From NCBI GenBank assembly GCA_964035545.1, contig OZ037765.1, positions 4,833,698 to 4,897,697 of the forward strand: a stretch of 64,000 nucleotides of DNA. Direction: 5' to 3'. This stretch comes from Bugula neritina (Eukaryota > Bryozoa > Gymnolaemata > Cheilostomatida > Bugulidae). The position numbers and the translations under genes were made by a program. Below, piece by piece: positions 47,101-63,362 of the stretch (within the stretch, counting starts at the first letter, position 1; every line of letters starts with the position of its first letter). Below the pieces are notes generated by a model. The model saw nothing but the letters and a program-made list of their open reading frames with translations, was not told the origin of the DNA and made no database searches.

Positions 47101-50100
47101 TTTTGGTATAAATATGACACAATTTTAAGATTTTCAGCCAACTTACAGGTTTTTTCTACTGCTTGACTAAAAGGGCAGGAAATGTTTAAGGAATTGAAAA
47201 AAGTATTAGAAAGTATGACACATACTAAAGTCTTGCCACACTATATTTATAACACCTACTTTATTAAAAATATTACTCAAAACTGGCTAGAAAATTCAAT
47301 TTTCACCCCAAAGCAAATAGAGTAAGTCATTATATGCTATAAATAAATTTTCTAAACATTTCAAAATATTCAACTTTTTTAGCGAGAAGACTTGTGAGTA
47401 GATGAATATTATTGTTACAACATAACCAACTGTCAGGTAGCGCCTTGGCTAAAAGCAGGTAAATTGGCCAGTTTTACAGCAGCGGCAAAACAGCTAGGTA
47501 TGTTGTAAAACACAAGACTGACACTCGGGAATGTGTCAGTTGGCTAATTACCTCTACCTCTGGCATATAATCATATGATCAGAGCTCTTGGGAGGGGCTA
47601 ACTACCGCAAGCAAATAGTGAAACAATGTTTTTACAAAACACAGACTTGGTGTTTTGCCGTCACAACAGGTACGGTGAGCAGCAGCTTCTCAGGGTGTCA
47701 GCTTTTGCTGTCGGCAGCGAGTCAAGGGTGCTCAAGTCTACGAACCTGGTTTTGAAGACTTTCAACGTCTGCTCAGTGAACACCACCAACATAAAAGCTC
47801 ACGCAAGTTCATAGTCACCATGCATGTGAAAAAAAACCCTGATAGAAGGGTTTTTTGTTAAATCAGGCTAAGAATTTATTCAGATGAGGCACAGAAGCAA
47901 TTATGACAAGATGCCCTTCCTAACCTCACCAATAGCCTTTACTGGGGTTTGAACCCATGAATTTGTGTTTATTAAGCAAACGCTCTAACCCCTAGACCAC
48001 GGCTGCTTCCCCCTCCCCCAGCACCACCAACAAATGACAGTATCGAATAACTTTAATATGAAAACTTTTAGTGACTGCAGTGTAGCATAGAACGGACTAG
48101 TTCTAGCTACTATGACGAGGCTGTCAACAGACCCCCCCCAACCATACAGCTAATAGACTGAGAGCATGTGTAATAAAGAACACACCTGAGGTGTGGTAGT
48201 CGGAGCCGATGAAAGACATGTTGAATCCTGAGAAAGCTTGAAGCAGCAGTTTATAACACTCGCTCCACGCAGGTGACGGCAGCAGAGGGTTCACGCAATG
48301 CATCGCTGCCACTCGCTTGAAAAATGCTGCCTTTCTGTGAAAATTTAGTTGGCTGTACAAATCTCCAATCACATCAAATCTCTCCACCTGTTAAAGCATA
48401 GCTGAATATTTCAGGTCACAATATCAACACTTCAGGTCACATGATCACCACAAAAAACTTGCACATAGAATAATCGTCATAACTAAAAACCAGAATCTAC
48501 AGAAATACATTATATAAAAAAATTAAATAATTTTTTACCAAAGAAAACATAATAAAAATTACAAATACAAGCAACAGAAAATGATGATTGAGTAAAGATT
48601 TTAGGATTTAGAAAGCAAGGAAAGTGAGTAATGGTACTTTGTAGACTATTACTATATTGTATTGTACTATATTATATTATATTACACTATATAACTACAT
48701 TATATTGTATTGCACTATATTATATTATTATGTTATTATTATACTATATAACTACAGTATATTGTATTGTACTATATTATATTATATTATTATATTATAT
48801 TACACTATACCACTACATTATATTATGTTGTATTATATTATACAGTATTAAATTATTATTTTGACTTATACTTTAAATTATATTGTATTATAATATAATA
48901 CTACATATTATATTATTGTATTATATTAGCCTATTGCACACATATAATTTATCTTGACATAAAAAATTTCATTACTGTTGTTTTACTGCTTTCAGTGTAA
49001 GAAGAATTTTTTCTATAAAAACATTTGCAACCCAGTGAATGCATTTTGTTGAAATAACAAACATAAAACTCAATAGTGCATCTGTGTGGTCTGACACAGT
49101 GTATGAGTGACACATATAATGCTAAACATGACACGTATGCAAGTCAAATGGCATGTTTTTACAACATAAATTCTGTCACATCAATGATTCAAAAATATTA
49201 ATTAAGAAAATCTTTTCATTTTGCTCTCATATAGGATCAAGAGCTTAGAAAACCTTCTCAAAGGCCAAATCCTGGTCTACCCCATTATTTTCAAGCAACT
49301 AGACTGTGACACCTAGGTGACCTTCGGCCAGAAATTTCTTGTATTCTAAATATAGCTCTTTAATAACTTTTTTTCAATGAATAACCACAGGCATTACAGA
49401 AGGTATTAGTTTGATGGAAAAAATCATGAAACAATAAAAAATACTAATAAAACCAAAGAAAAGTTTCAATAGAAACTCAAAATTTACATGAAAATTTTGA
49501 TAGGAAATTGACTGAAATGCACACTCACTGACCCTTTCTTTATAGGTGAAATCATCCAGGATTACGTAAGCTACATCGTGTAAGAATTCTGCAGCTGTTT
49601 TGGTCTTCTGTAAATAAATTTTAAGTACAGAGTAAATACTTCACAATTAACTCATTAAAGCATTACATTTATAAAAATCAACATTTTATAAACCACAACC
49701 TTTTAATCCTCTCAAAAATTAGAATAGCTACAAAACTTTGAAAAATTTAAGTTTATGCTTTTGAAAAAATTTGTAAGAAGTTTATGTGTGGATTAAAAAT
49801 AATAAAAGTGTAGAGAGTAAAAATATTTTTCGATATTTATTTGAAGGTTGTTAAATTAAATATGAAAAATGTTATCTCAAACTCATAACCAAGTTAGTAT
49901 TCAACGTTTACATTAGTTAATTAAGTATCATTCAGAAATCTGTATTCTGCATGTTTTTAAATGTAAAATTAAAGAAATTACTGTGCCTTGAACTTGCTAC
50001 AGAAATTAGCTGATTATTAGTCCACTATAATGTGTTGAAGTAAAGTAAAGCTTGGTTTAAACAGCTTTGCTTGTAAAGCTATATGTGTTTGTTGAGAATT

Positions 50101-53100
50101 TAGGTAAAAATGGCACAGGTAATAACGGCACAAATGAAAAAGTAGGTAAAAATGGCACACTGATGTTAAATTTTCTCAAACACAAACCTACACCCACATC
50201 CCAATATTGAAAATGTGTCATTTTTACCTCCATACTATTTTTGCCTACCTACTATTTTTACCTACTTTTCTATTTGTACCATTATTACCTGTGCCATTTT
50301 TACTGGTCACTGGTAGTTAAATACTTTAGCACGCGGTGCCAAGGCTATGAAAATGCTATTGAATATTTATTTAAAATCTTTCTTGAATGAGGCAAGAATA
50401 AAACATGATAGGGGAAGCTGCAAAGTATCAGTGGCAGTATCATATTAATAGCCAGTATGCACATGGTCAGTGCATTGTAACAGTGACACATATATTGCAT
50501 TATTATGTACAGTAATACACTCCAGACACCACTTGAGTCTATTCTGTAAATATGTCACGTTGAACGAGTGTTACATAAAGCACTGCAAGTATGAAGCTCA
50601 ACAAAGATGAACTGTTTCATCAACTTCTTAAAACTTTGACATTTCTAAGTATTATTATGCTGAGGAGCATTTGAGTTTGACTCTAATGGTCTAATTGAAA
50701 GATTAATTTACAGAGAGACTTTATAACAAGAGGGTTAGACACTTGGAAAGAGCCGACCACATGTCACACTGGCATCTTACTCTGCTATACACTTAACTCT
50801 GCTATTGTTACCTTCATACTCAACCAGCTTGCTCACATCTTTGATTTTTCACACCATGTGTGTGTTGTTCTTAATCTGAGTGTATTTATACATATTATTT
50901 CTATAATATCCTCCGTAGTCATAATACAAAGCTTCGGAGTAATGTCAGTTTATCTTTGCAAGAATTTCAACAATAAGTGCCTAGGCTTGTTCAATGATTA
51001 ATTAGCCAAATGAGAATTGGCCAAGGTTTCTGCCACCATAATTAGGCCACCTATGTTGTGACACACCTGAAAACTCTGTTTCACTTTCAATACACAGCCT
51101 ACTCCTTCCCATTACCTATGATTACCATATTTATGATAAGTATGACACCATCAGGTAACAGGGATAAAACAATTTATAATTATTTTAACCCTCTCATAAA
51201 AATCAATTTTAAATTTTATGTTATAGAAAACGTATAAAATCTGATAATTCAATGTTTAAAACCCTGAAAATGTTTCCTGCTAACAGAATTTTTCAGGCAG
51301 CAATAAAAAACAGTCACACATAAAATAAGACATTTAATTTTTATTTATTCCATATATATAATACAAGTTGTATTACTTGAAGAAGGAAAAAACAGACACA
51401 ACATTTTCTCATCAGAAAGAAAACAAATGAACAAAACAATATATAAGAAATGTCCAACAACAATCATATTAGATAAAATAAATTAGAAAAATATAAACTA
51501 TTGAAAAGTTCCTATATAATCTGAATAGGCTTCTAACACAAAACCAGTTTGTATCTTGGGTTACATGATCTATATTGAGCTTATAAAATATCTTAAGGCT
51601 TATTTAGTTGCACTATTACCAGCAGCACTTTGCTAGGAAAAAAGGGCCAACGGGGCCAGCACTACTGGACCATGGCAGCTTCTATATGTACTCTAAAGAA
51701 CAAGGAAGTTATTATCATAAAGGCTTAAATGTCACTGATACAAATCATTTTATAATTGAAATGGTAATGCACTGATCTGTGGTAAATGGCAGTAAAATGA
51801 TTAATGAAGTAAATGGGAATATTTAGGGGGCAATTTTTTAGTGTTATGCGTTCTGTTTCTGGTGTTAGCAAACCAAGTGTCAACTTTCACAGAAGAAATG
51901 CCACACAGAGATGCCAGCTCTTTTTTCTCTTCGTAGGTAGGGTATGGTCTATACTCGTGCTCTTTGAACCATTCGTTTAATATAAATTTAGCTTTAGGAC
52001 TTAGGTATCGCTTGCCGCTAGATGTGTGTTCAGAACAGCTCTCCGCAGCATCGCTTGGTTCTGGACTACTCGAGGTAACATTTTTTACAACATCTTGAAG
52101 ACTTTCGATAACCGACTTATTCTGTGTGAGGTCAGAAACCAGTTCACTAGATTTCTGGAGGCATCGAGCTACAACCTGCTCCAGACTGGGTTTAGTATTG
52201 GTGGAGGGGCTGCACTTGCTCGGTTCAGGAGAAGATCTGGAAGGAAGATCCTCTAGTGTGGAGCTTTCACTGGGTGATTGAGCACACACCGTCTCCACGT
52301 CAATCAGCTCTTCTTTATTATCTTCAGCTGCCGGTGTTGGCTCAGGTTCAACAGCTTTATTTTCGGCAGCAGTACTGTTAGAAGAACCGCTCAATGGCTC
52401 GATTTTATATTTATGCATAAGCCTTTTTTTCATAGCCAACTTGCTATTCAGCATATGCTTGCCACCATTATAAGTAAGTGTGTTGAAGGACCTTGCTCTT
52501 GTGTTGGCCATCCATTTCTTTACCTATGCATATATCAACGTATATTAATTAGAATGCTACATACCCCTCTGACATGTCACAGCCCAATTAATACCGAATA
52601 AATCTTACCAAAATACTATGTTATGTGGACTTAGTGGCAGCAGGATTGGCAACAAAATTAGCCCTTATTTATGTGAAATCAAGCTGAGCGAGTGGCATTC
52701 CCATGTATAAGCACCATGAGATAATGATAAGTAAGTATGTAAAGTCCATGCCACTCATCCTATGACACTGACTGCCTGTTAGCATGTCAAACGTTGACAC
52801 TTTTTAGCAGCCAATGAAAATGACACCAAAGACCTGAAAGCAGACTTAGCTGCTGAAGGGCTATCAATTTCCAATAGACCCATCAACTCGCAGCTACTCA
52901 ATAATCATCATAGCTTTATGACTCTCATTACTGGGCAACTGCTTTGAAGAACATTAATTCTAGATCTTACACACTACAAGTATTCACACCACAACACGCA
53001 ATTAGCTGGTAATCATGGTGTTACAGGCCAGAGGTGTTATAACCAATAACTGCACTTCCTCCACGCAAAATGAGGCTTCGCAACGGGAAACCTTACGTGT

Positions 53101-56100
53101 ATTATCACCACAACAAATAAATTAAGTTAATTTATAGCAGAGAAATCACATTTTTTACAGCTAAAAATGTATAATTACAATAGGTGAGCATAATTACTGC
53201 TATAAACGTAACAACAAATGTATTACCTGGTTATGGGAAATTCCCCCTGCCAAGGCCAAGTCTTTTACCTCCTCGTCAGTTGCATAAGGGTGGTCCCGGT
53301 GTTGCTGATACCAGCGTTGGAGAATAGATACGGCCTTTTTTGACAAAAATCTGCTTTTCTTTTGTACACCAACATTTGAATTAGCTGGTTTATTTTGAGA
53401 CCCACTAAGATCAAGTGGAGCTTCTATGTTCTCTAGAAGAGCGGAGGGGGTGCTGGAGGCATTGGTAGAAGGCAGGGGAAGGCTGGAACCCAGGCCTCCA
53501 GGCAGATTAACTAAAATAATATATAAGTCATTATTTTTCCACGACTTGAATGATTTCGTCTTAACATCTGCTACAATACCAAGGCATTTTTCTACTGTGA
53601 GTGTTTAAATTCTCATTTTTGTGTCATTGTGACAGTTAGGCACTTGGGTAATTGCTTGATATTAGATAAGTTTTGCAAATGTAAACACAATCGTGTAGTT
53701 AAAAATAACAGCTTGAGGCAGTGTATCAAAGTGTCACCCGTATTTACTCATATTTAGAGCATTTCAACTTGAGAAGTTATGATTAAAGAGATATAGTTAC
53801 ACCTGCGGGGATGATAATCTATATCACAGCACTATTCACACAATACCTCTGAGAAACTGTAAAAACTTGAAGAGGTAAAATAAACGAGAGCCAAGCATCA
53901 GCTGCACTGGCAAATTAGCCAGCATAATAATTAATATTAGGCTAACCTGCGTTGAAAGATATGCATAATTTTACATAATGCTCATGAGAAAAGGCCAATT
54001 AATATAATTTTTTGAAGTGTCATTTCTACGGTTGGCAAATTAGATTATATAATCGTATAGGATTCAAAACCAACAATTTTTCACAGGTTTTTGATATTCT
54101 GCATAATTATCTAAACCCCAGAATAATGAGAGGTCTTATTGTACACGCCTATAAAATCATCATATATTAAAGATAATCAAGGACAATATTCAACAAAGTA
54201 AAAAACCCGGATCTTTGATTATAAAAAAGATTTGAGAGTAAAATTAGGTGCTTGAAAGTTTTTCACAAACATGATAAAAACAGAGTATAAAAATTTTGAT
54301 AAAACAACTAGGAATAGTTTATTGGACCTAGCAAGTGTTTGTAGTTTCAAGGTCAGTGAAATATAGAGAGCTATTTTGTATATAGAAATACAGGTTGCTC
54401 TTTTATGTAGAAACACAGATAGCTGCTGTGTATAAAAGACTACATATAAACACTTGATGAAAAAAAAACCACTGGTTGTGTACCAAATTTGAAATACAAT
54501 TTTAAATATAAGTTAAAAACAAAAATTGAGTTGTGTTGAATAAAACATAAAAAACTGACTTTAGGTACAACTACAAGAGCAACTATGTGTAATCAGTAAT
54601 AAGGTAATACTTTAAGGCACCAAATGTTTTAGAAAGTGAAATTATTTTTATATAATATGTGCACAATCATATACACGCATTTTCATAAGCATTTCTATAT
54701 ACACATTCTCAACAAAAACCTAAGCATGTAAAGCAATATAAAATTAACAAATACAAATGAAATATTTATGTTTGAACAATACTTACCACCAGGTTTCATA
54801 GCAACATCTGGCATCAAAAGTTTAGTCTTTTTCATCAGTGTGTCCAGAGTAACCTTCATCTGATTGATAAGGGTTTCTCGCTCCCGATTATAATGCCAAT
54901 TTATAAGCTGACTGGCATCAGCTCCATGACTGTTAAACGCCAGCGCCTTATACCTCTGAACCTCTATCTGGTCAGTATACTGGTAATACGTAGTAAGCAG
55001 CGCGGGGAAATAAGACTGCAGTTGAATCAGCATCATTTGCAGTACAGCGTGTTCTTTAGCTAAACCGTCGCTAACAGTGGTAAACGAAGAGTCTAAAGAT
55101 CTAGGTGAACTACTAGTACTACTAGTTTCTGTCAGCAACGAATATGGCACATTAGATCTAACACAATCTAAAGCTAACGTAACTTGTAAGTCGTTAAAAA
55201 GAGGATGACTTTTTAGCTGTTCAAGTCTTTTTCGATGATCACTATTGCTTTCACTATCTAGGCTACCAGCCCTTTCGGCTTTGATGGTTGGTGAAGACAT
55301 TTCGAGTAGAGCGTCGCGTTCGCTACGTTTGCTCTCGTGGAAGAGACTGTGAATCGCCAGAACTGGAAGCTCGCTACTCATAATAATATAGCTGATTGAG
55401 AGAGTAACCAATCAGCTATACTCATTCATTGTATCAATATAATAGCAATATGAGAATAGAGCTGCAATAGAGTGAGACTTAATACTCGTGGAGTGCTTAG
55501 TTCGACTGCCTCTGTCACTCCTTTGCATCATAAGTAGCATGAAAACGGTAACAGGAAAAGAATGCCAATAGGTGTTTGTCTGTATGCCAATCAAGCAATG
55601 ATGAGTATTATTCAGCGTGTCAGCAATAATAAACATGTCACACTATAACCTGCCTGCCACACACTCAAGAGTGGATACATTAGCATGTCAATACACTTTG
55701 CTCTAACTGCCCACTCCCAACTTTACTTACACCAAGTAAAATTACATCAAATAAATATCTACATAAAAGGTAAAGAAATAAGTATATAATCATTGAATAT
55801 AAAAACCTAAATATCAAGTCTTATTTTCTGAATTGAAAAAAATATAAATCCGGCCCTGTAAAAAGCATGATCAAGCGTAGCACAAATAATTACGAGCATC
55901 TTTTACACAATCTTTGAGAAGTGGGTGATTAGCTTTTCACGGTGCCGATAGAGTGTATCAAAGAACAACGTGTTTAAACAAACCATCTACTTATGTAAAA
56001 CAAGCTAATCTATTGATGCATTTGAGAGCTACTAAGGCAGTTGGCCAACACAAAATCTCATAAATGAATTTTTTAACATCAAACCTTCAATAAATCATGA

Positions 56101-62100: not shown

Positions 62101-63362
62101 TAGCTACTGCAAACCTGTCACCTATCTACACAGCAATTACATGAACTATTCAACAAGGCTTTATTACAAAACAACCACCTCATATGATTTGGGCCCGGTT
62201 TTTAAAAATGCTCACCCCCAAATATAACTGTATTCCAGTCAACTATTAATGAAATATACACATTATTACACAGCTGTGTAACAATATTTAAATAACAATA
62301 AGTATGATACCCATGATCTACAATACCACGACACATAATGCATGGCATTTTCTAAATAAGCAACATAATAAAACGTATCATCATGGCACCGCACTGTGTT
62401 ATTATTTTAGTGCAAGTGGACATGTCAAATGAAACTGTATATTTTATATCTCTTCAGTATGTGCTTTTAAACACTCCATTGAGCTATACACTACTTTCAT
62501 AGAAGTTTCATGCGTAACTTTGTACACCTATGCAAATTTCATACAAATCCTTAACTGACAAAATACCAACGACTAACAATATGCAGGTAGCTCTATTTTT
62601 AAAAATATATTTTTGCATCCTTTTAGATTTAATTAAACAAGAAATGTAGTGATTCCCTATTCAGAGTATTACCAAATATTTTTGCAATTCAACAAATAAA
62701 GAAAAAACGTCCCCAACATATATAAAAAGAAAAGGTAATCAAAATCTGAGCACCAGGTTTTCATTAAAAGTTTTAAGTTTTCGAAAAACCCAACATCCTG
62801 GTGCACTTGTTTTTGCATCACGTCTTAGTGATATCATGTTATAAGTGGCATGATGATAAGCAGCTAGGCCGTGCATTTCTATGGGTGTTAACCAAAATAC
62901 TAAAACCGCAAATACACAGACTGGCAAGATACCCTCGCGCAAACAAGATATTTCAAATTGAAAATTGCAATACATTAATTGGAAATGCACCAATTTTCCA
63001 TCAACTACATCAATGAGCTTAGTGGTGCTTCCCTGCATTCACACATCTCTAGGGTCTTCGCTAAGCGACAAATAATGGCGACAGCGTGATATTGATAACT
63101 TTTCTAATAAAAAAATAATTGCGTCTAAACTGCTGAGTAAGCACTCTTACAGTAAGCTGAAGAGAATTTTGTTTAGTTCGATAAGAAAAAAGATTACGAT
63201 CCAAATGATAAGCAGATGAGTTGAAGTAAAACCGCACCTTGTCATAGCAAGCAATGGCTTCCCGGTATTGAGCAATCACGTCGGTAGTCGTCACGTTGAG
63301 CTTCGCTTTCGTTGATGCCAAATCCAAGTGACTAAAACTGTTTTGTAGTGAGAGAGAAGGGT
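35133..63362 (-). CDS. TRAPPC9: TRAPPC9 (NIBP/Trs120), TRAPP II complex subunit, C-terminal part (18 coding exons; N-terminus outside window)
   Basis: Minus-strand exons in coding order: 63362-63238, 59003-58935, 49607-49533, 48387-48186, 46986-46893, 46144-45968, 44720-44581, 43835-43750, 42956-42830, 41978-41771, 40241-40156, 39862-39678, 38473-38349, 38200-38087, 36632-36442, 36204-36124, 35955-35831, 35273-35133. Every junction phase fits; about 782 residues plus stop (human protein 1,148). Seen: the helical-repeat region with VIAQYREAIACYDK, then NFHRKAAFFKRVAAMHCVNP, nearly identical to human; VLPPVVFTCFPLLR; LPPHLEPHKLKKVLP; FSWVQGTAGSVEVHLCNPLP, the start of the beta-sandwich domains; and the C-terminus with YLVGEPIKFLYKISN and FIHIGQSSHLG. 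The family scaffolds TRAPP II at the Golgi, which activates Rab11/Rab1-type GTPases, and NIBP also binds NIK and IKK-beta in mammals. The 38087 to 36632 junction is the least certain, since the human protein has extra residues there. A homeobox gene lies inside the 9.3-kb intron. Confidence 0.93.
35375..35430. repeat. inverted repeat: two SINE body ends head to head
   Basis: A 25-base left arm (35375-35399, starting ACATCACCAATGGCC) and right arm (35406-35430, ending CTATTGGTGATGT) are reverse complements with one mismatch around the 6-base loop TTCGAG. Both arms are SINE body sequence, so the left arm is the stub of a minus-oriented copy joined to the plus-oriented copy that follows. Confidence 0.85.
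35405..35565 (+). mobile_element. SINE-like element, 5' truncated
   Basis: Starts in the body (ACAAAGGCTATTGGTGATGT) and runs through GAAGAGCATCCAGTCATAAT, AACAAAAAACCTCTCTATCA and GGGTTTCTCACAGGGATAGT to ACTATAAACTTGCATGAGTT plus a T run. No A-box half. Located in a TRAPPC9 intron, followed by ATAACAATATA repeats to about 35660. Confidence 0.75.
36713..36850. repeat. GTGTGACAGACAGACA repeats in a TRAPPC9 intron
   Basis: Irregular tandem copies of CAGTGTGACAGACAGA and variants in the intron 36633-38086. The Ser/Leu/Cys-rich minus-strand reading across it (36694-37032) is a repeat translation, not a gene. Confidence 0.7.
38636..38795 (+). mobile_element. SINE-like element, degenerate head
   Basis: Body words GTGGTGATGTTAGGAAGAGC, GTCATAAATGCTCTTGTGTC, ATAAGTTCTTAGCTCATTTA and TTTCTCACAGAGATAGTGAC, ending ACTATAAACTCGAGTGAGTT. 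A weak T-arm GAGTTCAAAC remains. Plus orientation in a TRAPPC9 intron. Confidence 0.7.
41440..41765. repeat. ~25-bp tandem repeat in a TRAPPC9 intron
   Basis: Degenerate units of ACTTACACGTATAGACGTAC plus ACTGT, with variants ACACAGAGATG and ACACGTAGAGATATAG. Ends next to the donor of the exon 41978-41771. Confidence 0.85.
43370..43497. repeat. 21-bp tandem repeat in a TRAPPC9 intron (about 6 copies)
   Basis: Units of AACATACAGGTCTGAGTAGA plus C, with variants CTGACCAGAC and CTGAGTATAC. The length is a multiple of three, so it stays open and yields a YVVYSDLY-like periodic minus-strand reading that is not a gene. Confidence 0.88.
43924..44118 (+). mobile_element. SINE-like element with tRNA-like head
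   Basis: AGCAGCCGTGATCTAAGGGTT (A-box region; the best copy has GTGGTCTAGGGGTT), then AGGCCATTGGTGATGTTAGG, GTCATAATTGCTCCTGTGTG and TTCTCACAGGGGTAGTGC. The B-box part is deleted (AAACATCAAAGGCC). Lies in the intron 43836-44580 of TRAPPC9. Confidence 0.75.
47799..48007 (-). mobile_element. SINE-like element, minus orientation, with intact tRNA-like head
   Basis: On the minus strand the head reads GCAGCCGTGGTCTAGGGGTT, followed by GGGTTCATGG and GGGTTTCTCAC-type words; on the plus strand the B-box appears as GGGGTTTGAACCC at about 47944 and the A-box as AACCCCTAGACCACGGCTGC near 48005. The body has CCTTCCTAACCTCACCAATA. Located between the TRAPPC9 exons at 46986 and 48186. Confidence 0.78.
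48640..48930. repeat. TATATTATATTACAC microsatellite-like tract
   Basis: Nearly 300 bases of TATTATATTA, CACTATATAACTACA and TTGTATTGTACTATA words in a TRAPPC9 intron. Ile/Leu/Tyr-rich plus-strand readings here are repeat artefacts. Confidence 0.8.
50102..50305. repeat. foldback (inverted) repeat, possible MITE
   Basis: The left part (about 50102-50160) has GTAAAAATGGCACAGGTAAT and AAAGTAGGTAAAAATGGCAC; the right part (about 50215-50305) holds their reverse complements ACCTACTTTTCTATTTGTAC and ATTACCTGTGCCATTTTTAC. About 58 bases pair imperfectly across a spacer of about 60. GTAGGTAAAAAT-type words also repeat in tandem inside the right arm. Confidence 0.75.
51340..51349 (-). terminator. candidate double polyadenylation signal for the nested homeobox gene
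   Basis: Plus-strand TTTATTTATT reads AATAAATAAA on the minus strand, about 450 bases past the stop at 51801. It would end the nested gene independently of the TRAPPC9 transcript. Usage is inferred. Confidence 0.4.
51801..55381 (-). CDS. double TALE-class homeodomain protein, nested in a TRAPPC9 intron (3 coding exons)
   Basis: Minus-strand exons 55381-54787, 53510-53227 and 52523-51801 join in phase (1+2, then 0) to give 533 residues. Homeodomain 1 (about 249-310) is split by the second intron: SRFLSKKAVSILQRWY, HRDHPYATDEEV with the TALE three-residue loop extension, then ISHNQ / VKKWMANTRAR. Homeodomain 2 (about 464-523), wholly in the last exon, has YLSPKAKFILNEWF, EYRPYPTYEEK and VKVDTWFANTRNR. 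Both keep Trp48, Asn51 and Arg53 and carry Ala at the TALE specificity position 50; domain 1 has Met in place of Phe49. N-terminal LKSHPLFNDL (about 56-65) recalls the HPLF motif of MEIS/PKNOX (MEIS-A). The linker between the homeodomains is Ser/Pro/Glu-rich. Expected role: a sequence-specific nuclear transcription factor. The start could instead be the in-frame ATG at 55411, but the shorter start follows a possible acceptor. I cannot assign it to Irx, Meis, Pknox, Tgif, Pbx or Mkx; a lineage-specific divergent TALE gene fits best. Confidence 0.85.
56590..56785 (-). mobile_element. SINE-like element, minus orientation
   Basis: On the plus strand: CATGCAAGTTTATAATCGCT (tail), TGAGAAACCCCTGATAGAAA, TTTTTGTTAGAACTTATTTA, CTAACATCACCAATGGCC and a perfect B-box palindrome GGGTTCGAACCC. 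The head's A-box is partly lost (AACGCTTTAACCCCCTA). It lies inside the large TRAPPC9 intron upstream of the nested homeobox gene. Confidence 0.78.
59190..59231. repeat. 42-bp near-perfect palindrome
   Basis: AAGCTTGTTTAATTTT at the left end and AAAATTAAACAAGCTT at the right are exact reverse complements around ATACATGTAC, in which only one base pair mismatches. It lies in the TRAPPC9 intron between 59004 and 63237 with no gene beside it. Confidence 0.9.
59650..59830. other. GC-rich island with short inverted repeat inside a TRAPPC9 intron
   Basis: CTTGAGCAAT (59650-59659) and ATTGCTCAAG (59751-59760) form a 10-base inverted repeat, followed by a stretch far richer in G+C than its surroundings (GGCGCCGAGCCTGCAGAGGC, GCGACGGTAGGCCACCGC). 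No ORF or known RNA is recognised; it may be a mobile-element remnant or a structured RNA. Confidence 0.35.
60300..63237 (-). other. TRAPPC9 intron, nothing recognised
   Basis: A/T-rich intronic sequence between the exons ending at 59004 and beginning at 63238. I see no coding, tRNA-like or tandem-repeat structure. Positions 63363-64000 are likewise intron leading to TRAPPC9 exons outside the window. Confidence 0.6.

Follow-up and report, generated by a model that had tools for sequence, protein, structure and literature searches.

A protein with two TALE homeodomains in the bryozoan Bugula neritina, very probably an ortholog of SPILE-B

The gene and its reading frame

The 64,000-nucleotide stretch of Bugula neritina DNA considered here (contig OZ037765.1 of assembly GCA_964035545.1, positions 4,833,698 to 4,897,697; hereafter the window) carries on its minus strand, at 51801..55381, a gene coding for two homeodomains of the TALE class in a single protein. 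Sequence comparison makes it very probably an ortholog of SPILE-B and not a new invention. The gene is read from three exons, all features given for it below lying on the minus strand. Exon 1 (54787..55381) opens with a start codon at 55381, shortly after an in-frame stop, and encodes a conserved N-terminal domain. Intron 1 (53511..54786) is in phase 1, and exon 2 (53227..53510) holds a PLDLS motif and the first 47 residues of homeodomain 1 (HD1). Intron 2 (52524..53226), in phase 0, lies within HD1 at Q44|V45, and exon 3 (51801..52523) brings the end of HD1, a linker, homeodomain 2 (HD2) and the stop, with a short C-terminus past HD2 that occupies, stop included, 51801..51836. Both introns have GT-AG borders, and joining 54787 to 53510 and 53227 to 52523 yields an in-frame coding sequence of 1602 nucleotides, that is, 533 amino acids and a stop. 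This agrees with the preliminary description, drawn from the letters of the window, which had proposed one 533-residue reading with fitting splice phases. The chain of exons is not a chance reading, because a database protein of another bryozoan, Watersipora subatra (P0001, 554 amino acids), aligns with it over 92% at 53% identity and likewise unites the N-terminal domain, HD1 and HD2 in one chain.

No intron interrupts HD2. The phase-0 intron at Q44|V45 of HD1 has the same position in a PBX gene of the Bugula genome and in its MKX-like gene (the second exon of the latter being assumed); in the IRX gene the split falls at the same homeodomain codon, its phase being 1.

Two TALE homeodomains in one protein

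HD1 covers residues 247-309, of which 247-293 are encoded at 53227..53367 and 294-309, with helix 3 (VKKWMANTRAR), at 52476..52523; it is recognized by Pfam, by pattern and in the tree discussed below. HD2 covers residues 460-522 (51837..52025, with WFANTRNR) and is recognized by Pfam, by the tree and by a match to Exd/PBX, its best among PDB sequences. P-Y and W-x-x-N-x-R-x-R are present in both. Pfam places Homeobox_KN (E 2e-25) and Homeodomain (4.8e-12) each on two stretches of the protein and, at E<=1, finds nothing there apart from homeodomains in these two places, and no PBC domain. The two 63-residue homeodomains further align gap-free over the loop with PBX/Exd, PKNOX and TGIF, which puts them in the TALE class, and the claim of two complete TALE homeodomains in one protein stands. 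Direct reading locates in both the residues N51, R53 and R55, which have roles in DNA binding. An AlphaFold model of the Watersipora ortholog gives both homeodomain blocks a confidence (pLDDT) of at least 90, against 63.6 overall, and its best PDB match is Exd (0.5 Å over 57 columns, E 1.2e-3). The likeness to PBX/Exd, which extends to the intron position in HD1, finds its limits in position 50 (Ala in Bugula, not Gly), in the PBC domain that Pfam did not find and in the second homeodomain. DUX, the double homeobox family, also has two homeodomains per protein but belongs to the PRD class (it serves as a multi-homeobox example in the part of PMC6118893 consulted).

The A-N-T-R signature common to both recognition helices had been put forward as evidence of an internal duplication. 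It fails in this role. It occurs in both homeodomains of 1/40 two-homeodomain proteins, that of Bugula, and since it is confined to this protein it is no trace of a duplication. WFANTRNR itself is the reading of 1/43 HD2 sequences, again Bugula, while Watersipora and three bryozoan-like sequences (P0002-P0004) have WFANKRNR. We take the likeness of the two helices as recent convergence.

Probable kinship with SPILE-B and TALE clade IV

The papers cited here by PMC number are each cited for part of their text. Clade IV of the TALE genes was defined by Paps et al. (2015, PMC5322547), who also named the PADRE region in clades VI and VII. Most TALE-IV sequences of annelids and molluscs combine two homeodomains with a conserved stretch after each, and NfSPILE-B was assigned to this clade (Barton-Owen et al., 2018, PMC6118893). 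The SPILE-B clade (NfSPILE-B, MvSPILE-3/4/5) is marked by two TALE homeodomains and, on the N-terminal side of HD1, a conserved modified PADRE region that is PADRE-like in most B-clade genes (Morino et al., 2021, PMC8524836). The Bugula protein shows the published feature of SPILE-B/TALE-IV, a pair of TALE homeodomains on a single chain, and because the gene matches this description it belongs to a kind already described. As in clade IV, a conserved stretch lies C-terminal to each homeodomain: HD1 is followed by N-T-L-x-x-x-G-x-x-H and HD2 by a P-x-Y block, both common to the two-homeodomain proteins of molluscs. Some annelid members have half-size homeodomains created by introns, a point of likeness to Bugula, while the degraded homeodomain seen in some annelids (PMC6118893) has no counterpart there. 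Bryozoa were not sampled there, the word occurring 0 times in the part of the text consulted.

A search with the full-length protein returned five proteins: Watersipora P0001, three others with the same linker motifs (P0002-P0004), and a two-homeodomain protein of the mussel Potamilus. With the homeodomain pair of the latter as query, a second search returned 39 proteins, the query included; two homeodomains are seen by pattern in 38 of them and one in P0018. Organism names accompany 19 of the 39, eighteen bivalves and one chiton, the other 20 being without a name. W-M-A-N is found in 40/40 HD1 and W-F-A-N in 42/43 HD2, Bugula reading likewise. By plain identity, the Bugula HD1 resembles the HD1 of a protein more closely than the HD2 in 35 of 38 cases, and the Bugula HD2 is closer to HD1 in 1/38; the Watersipora HD1 is nearer to HD1 in 36/38.

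Phylogeny carries the argument further. A tree was built from 39 homeodomains (14 HD1, 17 HD2 and 8 canonical TALE, over 63 columns, with a bootstrap not fully settled), for which 12 of the 38 two-homeodomain proteins of the Potamilus search were taken. The bryozoan HD1 and the HD1 of these 12 form one clade with support 100/100, and the canonical TALE sequences are set apart at 96/91. An ancient duplication of the homeodomain is compatible with this tree, in which HD1 and HD2 together stand apart from the 8 canonical TALE sequences and the outgroup is without single-homeodomain SPILE. An earlier tree, which included the very long row of a Bugula locus termed L005, had the same HD1 clade at 98/94.

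Several points weigh against a kinship with SPILE-B. The Watersipora HD2 is nearer to HD1 in 6/38 proteins. In the best tree the HD2 rows split over branches, although forcing them into one clade costs nothing (approximately unbiased test, p-AU 0.488), and in the tree with L005 the canonical TALE sequences stand beside HD1 at 82/79. The reference proteins are database entries that fit the published description of SPILE-B, not the papers' own sequences, and the comparison set was made up without annelid TALE-IV and single-homeodomain SPILE sequences. A profile search built on 7 proteins recovered the 4 known bryozoan-like proteins and nothing more, no mussel, annelid, brachiopod or nemertean member; as even the mussel proteins were missed, this silence means little. 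There are also differences from the SPILE-B-type proteins: bryozoan HD1 (in Bugula HD2 as well) has T at position 52, and the bryozoan C-terminus is shorter, without the NYF-x-x-KFPEY tail of molluscs. Set against these, the HD1 clade, the shared N-terminal domain and the published architecture uphold the suggestion, made at the outset, that SPILE was a candidate home for this gene. A literature search brought up no report of SPILE or TALE-IV genes in a bryozoan, with Morino et al. (2017) beyond its reach, and in the part consulted of a survey of bryozoan Hox and ParaHox genes (PMC10675955) the words TALE and SPILE are absent. The Ensembl annotation of the assembly may contain the gene without a name.

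The N-terminal domain, the linker and the PLDLS motif

Residues 45-195 (54797..55249) form the conserved N-terminal domain shared with the two-homeodomain proteins of molluscs. A hidden Markov model of 27 proteins from the Potamilus search scores 55.8 bits on the Bugula N-terminus, the best of 500 shuffles reaching 5.5, and hhalign gives a probability of 98.7 over 128 columns. AlphaFold models exon 1 with three long helices (105-120, 126-149 and 154-189) that are confident within an overall pLDDT of 70.3 and pTM of 0.50, and this model had no informative match in PDB. Compared by description only, the domain probably corresponds to the modified PADRE region of SPILE-B.

Between the two homeodomains, the linker (residues 310-459, 52026..52475) stands out in the bryozoan proteins. 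It is 150 residues long in Bugula and 177 in Watersipora, where the 38 two-homeodomain proteins of the Potamilus search have 17-46. It has conserved motifs of its own: around SLExVxxRC, K[ST]xxESLxxVV and ID[VI]ET it is kept in all five bryozoan-like sequences, and alignment with P0001-P0004 delimits in Bugula the motifs KPSLEQVVARCLQKSSE (residues 404-420, 52143..52193) and NKSVIESLQDVVK (residues 428-440, 52083..52121). We observe besides that IDVET[VI], at 52287-52304 within the bryozoan linker, stands ahead of HD1 in P0011 and P0012; it may have moved or have arisen twice.

Ahead of HD1, at residues 230-234 (53404..53418), lies PLDLS, a motif of the type that binds the co-repressor CtBP, a function it may have here. 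Both full-length bryozoan proteins have it in this place (residue 225 in Watersipora P0001).

Mode of action and competing readings

We propose that each homeodomain would bind a TGA-type half-site, so that the protein would read a bipartite site, and that a flexible linker, 150 residues long in Bugula, would allow the spacing of the half-sites to vary. PLDLS would recruit CtBP, making the factor mainly a repressor. Against this last step, PLDLS is found in 8 of 35 proteins longer than 450 amino acids and missing from 27, and in the 6 non-bryozoan proteins that have it (two of them named, both bivalves, and four closely alike around the motif) it is near the N-terminus, not ahead of HD1. In the limpet, SPILE-B expression is located in the second quartet at the 16-cell stage, and three mussel B-clade genes are expressed in 2d (PMC8524836). 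By analogy with what is reported for the limpet SPILE genes, the Bugula factor would act zygotically in early blastomeres, separating the fates of quartets. Taken as a whole, we hold it likely that the gene is a SPILE-B/TALE-IV ortholog, a lophotrochozoan TALE factor with a helical N-terminal domain and two homeodomains, acting in this way.

The closest competitor accepts the orthology and denies the early role: a SPILE-B ortholog whose activity falls at a later stage, for instance in tissue of the larva or tissue engaged in budding. In its favour, the protein and its linker are divergent, and genome searches, which covered 215.8 Mb in 295 contigs, gave no other clear SPILE gene. Bryozoan cleavage, moreover, is biradial, not spiral (Vellutini et al., 2017, PMC5408385). 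The same work nevertheless reports that Membranipora keeps early quartet-like fates and several markers despite the loss of spiral cleavage, and this fits a retained role. A lost early role is to our mind a distinct possibility, if short of probable.

Readings that deny the orthology fare far worse. The preliminary description had left room for a separate invention. In its bryozoan form, a TALE gene with a single homeodomain would have doubled it within Bryozoa, unrelated to SPILE-B. The long linker is indeed unlike that of other members; the identity of HD1 to HD2, 46% in Bugula, is slightly above the 40% found in Watersipora and as the mean of the mollusc search; the placement of HD2 in the tree is unsettled; and such events happen, a Helobdella TALE-XIX gene having gained a second homeobox independently (PMC6118893). 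Constraining the tree to a bryozoan-only duplication, however, makes the log-likelihood 18.5 worse (p-AU 0.030), bryozoan and mollusc HD1 group together at 100/100, and both the N-terminal domain and the stretches past the homeodomains are common with molluscs, all of which makes a separate invention very improbable.

A second proposal would see in the gene a MEIS/PKNOX paralog with an added homeodomain, in line with the MEIS-A-like N-terminus that had been read from a short HPLF motif. This motif is present, too, in the N-terminal exon of a MEIS/PKNOX-type gene of the Bugula genome (L036), and in our protein it is part of a conserved [HN]P[LMF]F region common to the two-homeodomain proteins of molluscs. 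The N-terminus of the Bugula protein is not detectably MEIS-like: it has no Meis_PKNOX_N match at E<=1, whereas that domain is found in the genome solely at two separate MEIS/PKNOX-type loci. On the SPILE-B N-terminal profile the HPLF-bearing exon of L036 scores 1.5 bits, below 9 of 600 shuffles, a comparison resting on this locus, L034 having given no usable reading and that of L037 being probably not coding. The MEIS/PKNOX family was absent among the 25 of 55 families listed in the profile comparison, and the tree keeps both homeodomains outside the canonical group (96/91), their helix 3 reading WMANTRAR and WFANTRNR against WFINARRR in MEIS/PKNOX/TGIF. MEIS/PKNOX descent is thus highly unlikely. 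As for HD1 and HD2 belonging to two transcripts, or to a decaying gene, this is scarcely credible: helix 3 of HD1 and all of HD2 share one unbroken frame of 240 codons, and the frame is intact in Watersipora P0001 and in the relatives that read through HD2, P0002 and P0003 starting at the end of HD1 and P0004 in the linker.

The putative host gene and further observations on the genome

The gene appears to be nested in TRAPPC9, in the orientation of its host. On the minus strand, blocks that we take to be TRAPPC9-like, through a TRAPPC9 segment composed for the tblastn query, lie downstream of the nested gene at 48196..48423 (E 1.7e-17) and, weakly but collinearly, upstream at 63130..63282 (E 0.63), with further collinear blocks at 46975-46877, 44713-44627, 43836-43750 and 41991-41842. 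The nesting announced beforehand finds support in these collinear same-strand blocks on both sides; a match to a family model above the cut-off did not come. Searched with PF08626, the genome gives a single match at E<=1, which with E 0.07 stays under the cut-off. It sits on the minus strand, some 2 kb past the right edge of the window, and the block at 48 kb was not reported by this model. Pfam gave no TRAPPC9 match on 20 flanking open reading frames and 4 exon pieces, and two exon pieces compared with PDB sequences gave nothing relevant. As Pfam failed to recognize TRAPPC9 on single pieces, the name of the host rests mainly on the composed query segment. Nearby, 48628-48895 on the plus strand is a low-complexity TA-rich stretch whose open frames are mostly I, L and Y.

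Elsewhere in the genome, homeodomains were found that we tentatively name TGIF-like, PKNOX-type, MEIS-type, PBX (two copies), IRX and MKX-like. An exon-wise search over the best candidates found, at the sensitivity used, no second copy of SPILE-B. L001 is presumably TGIF-like and L002 PKNOX-type, going by characteristic motifs and the Meis_PKNOX_N loci; PDB matches differ from these names, L001 ranking PKNOX1 over TGIF1 and the partial L002 ranking MEIS over PKNOX1. L005 (C3:25810257-25810373, minus strand) is a single TALE homeodomain of very divergent sequence, PYPSRVVRQYFAVEGGLLLKQVDKWFENQRR, whose open frame has 146 codons. Once the gene's own HD2 is set aside, it is the next best match to HD1 in the genome, and possibly another SPILE-type gene. 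On C8, two PBX-type homeodomains (L008, L018, L030), near 11057420 and 11050930, share a strand and are separated by about 6.5 kb. The first has its split at Q44|V45 and the second seemingly too, an acceptor being seen, and the pair would be a tandem duplication or alternative homeodomain exons. Finally, on C6, by its order chromosome 6, a full-length cox1 of mitochondrial type (11174072-11175412, 433 bits) parallels that of C295 (12636-13976, 435 bits), and would be either mitochondrial DNA inserted into the nuclear genome or the product of an assembly join. Further cox1-like genes are seen on C17, without TGA codons, and in pieces with TGA codons on C65 and C196; perhaps these three are cobiont contigs in the assembly.

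What a bryozoan SPILE-B would mean

The boldest form of the interpretation is that Bryozoa kept SPILE-B as their one clear SPILE gene and that it continues to specify a quartet in the biradial embryo, repressing by way of CtBP and reading two TALE half-sites with the help of a linker that has lengthened and bears motifs. We put this forward tentatively, as unlikely to hold in all its parts. The presence in Bryozoa of the two-homeodomain SPILE-B type would itself imply that the form with two homeodomains is older than the divergence of bryozoans and molluscs. As bryozoans are without spiral cleavage, expression in the embryo would be informative, and the Bugula gene offers a direct candidate for a quartet determinant in an embryo of the Membranipora type. 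If the proposal is true, the patterning of spiral quartets would have left in bryozoan SPILE-B a molecular trace that has outlasted the geometry of cleavage.

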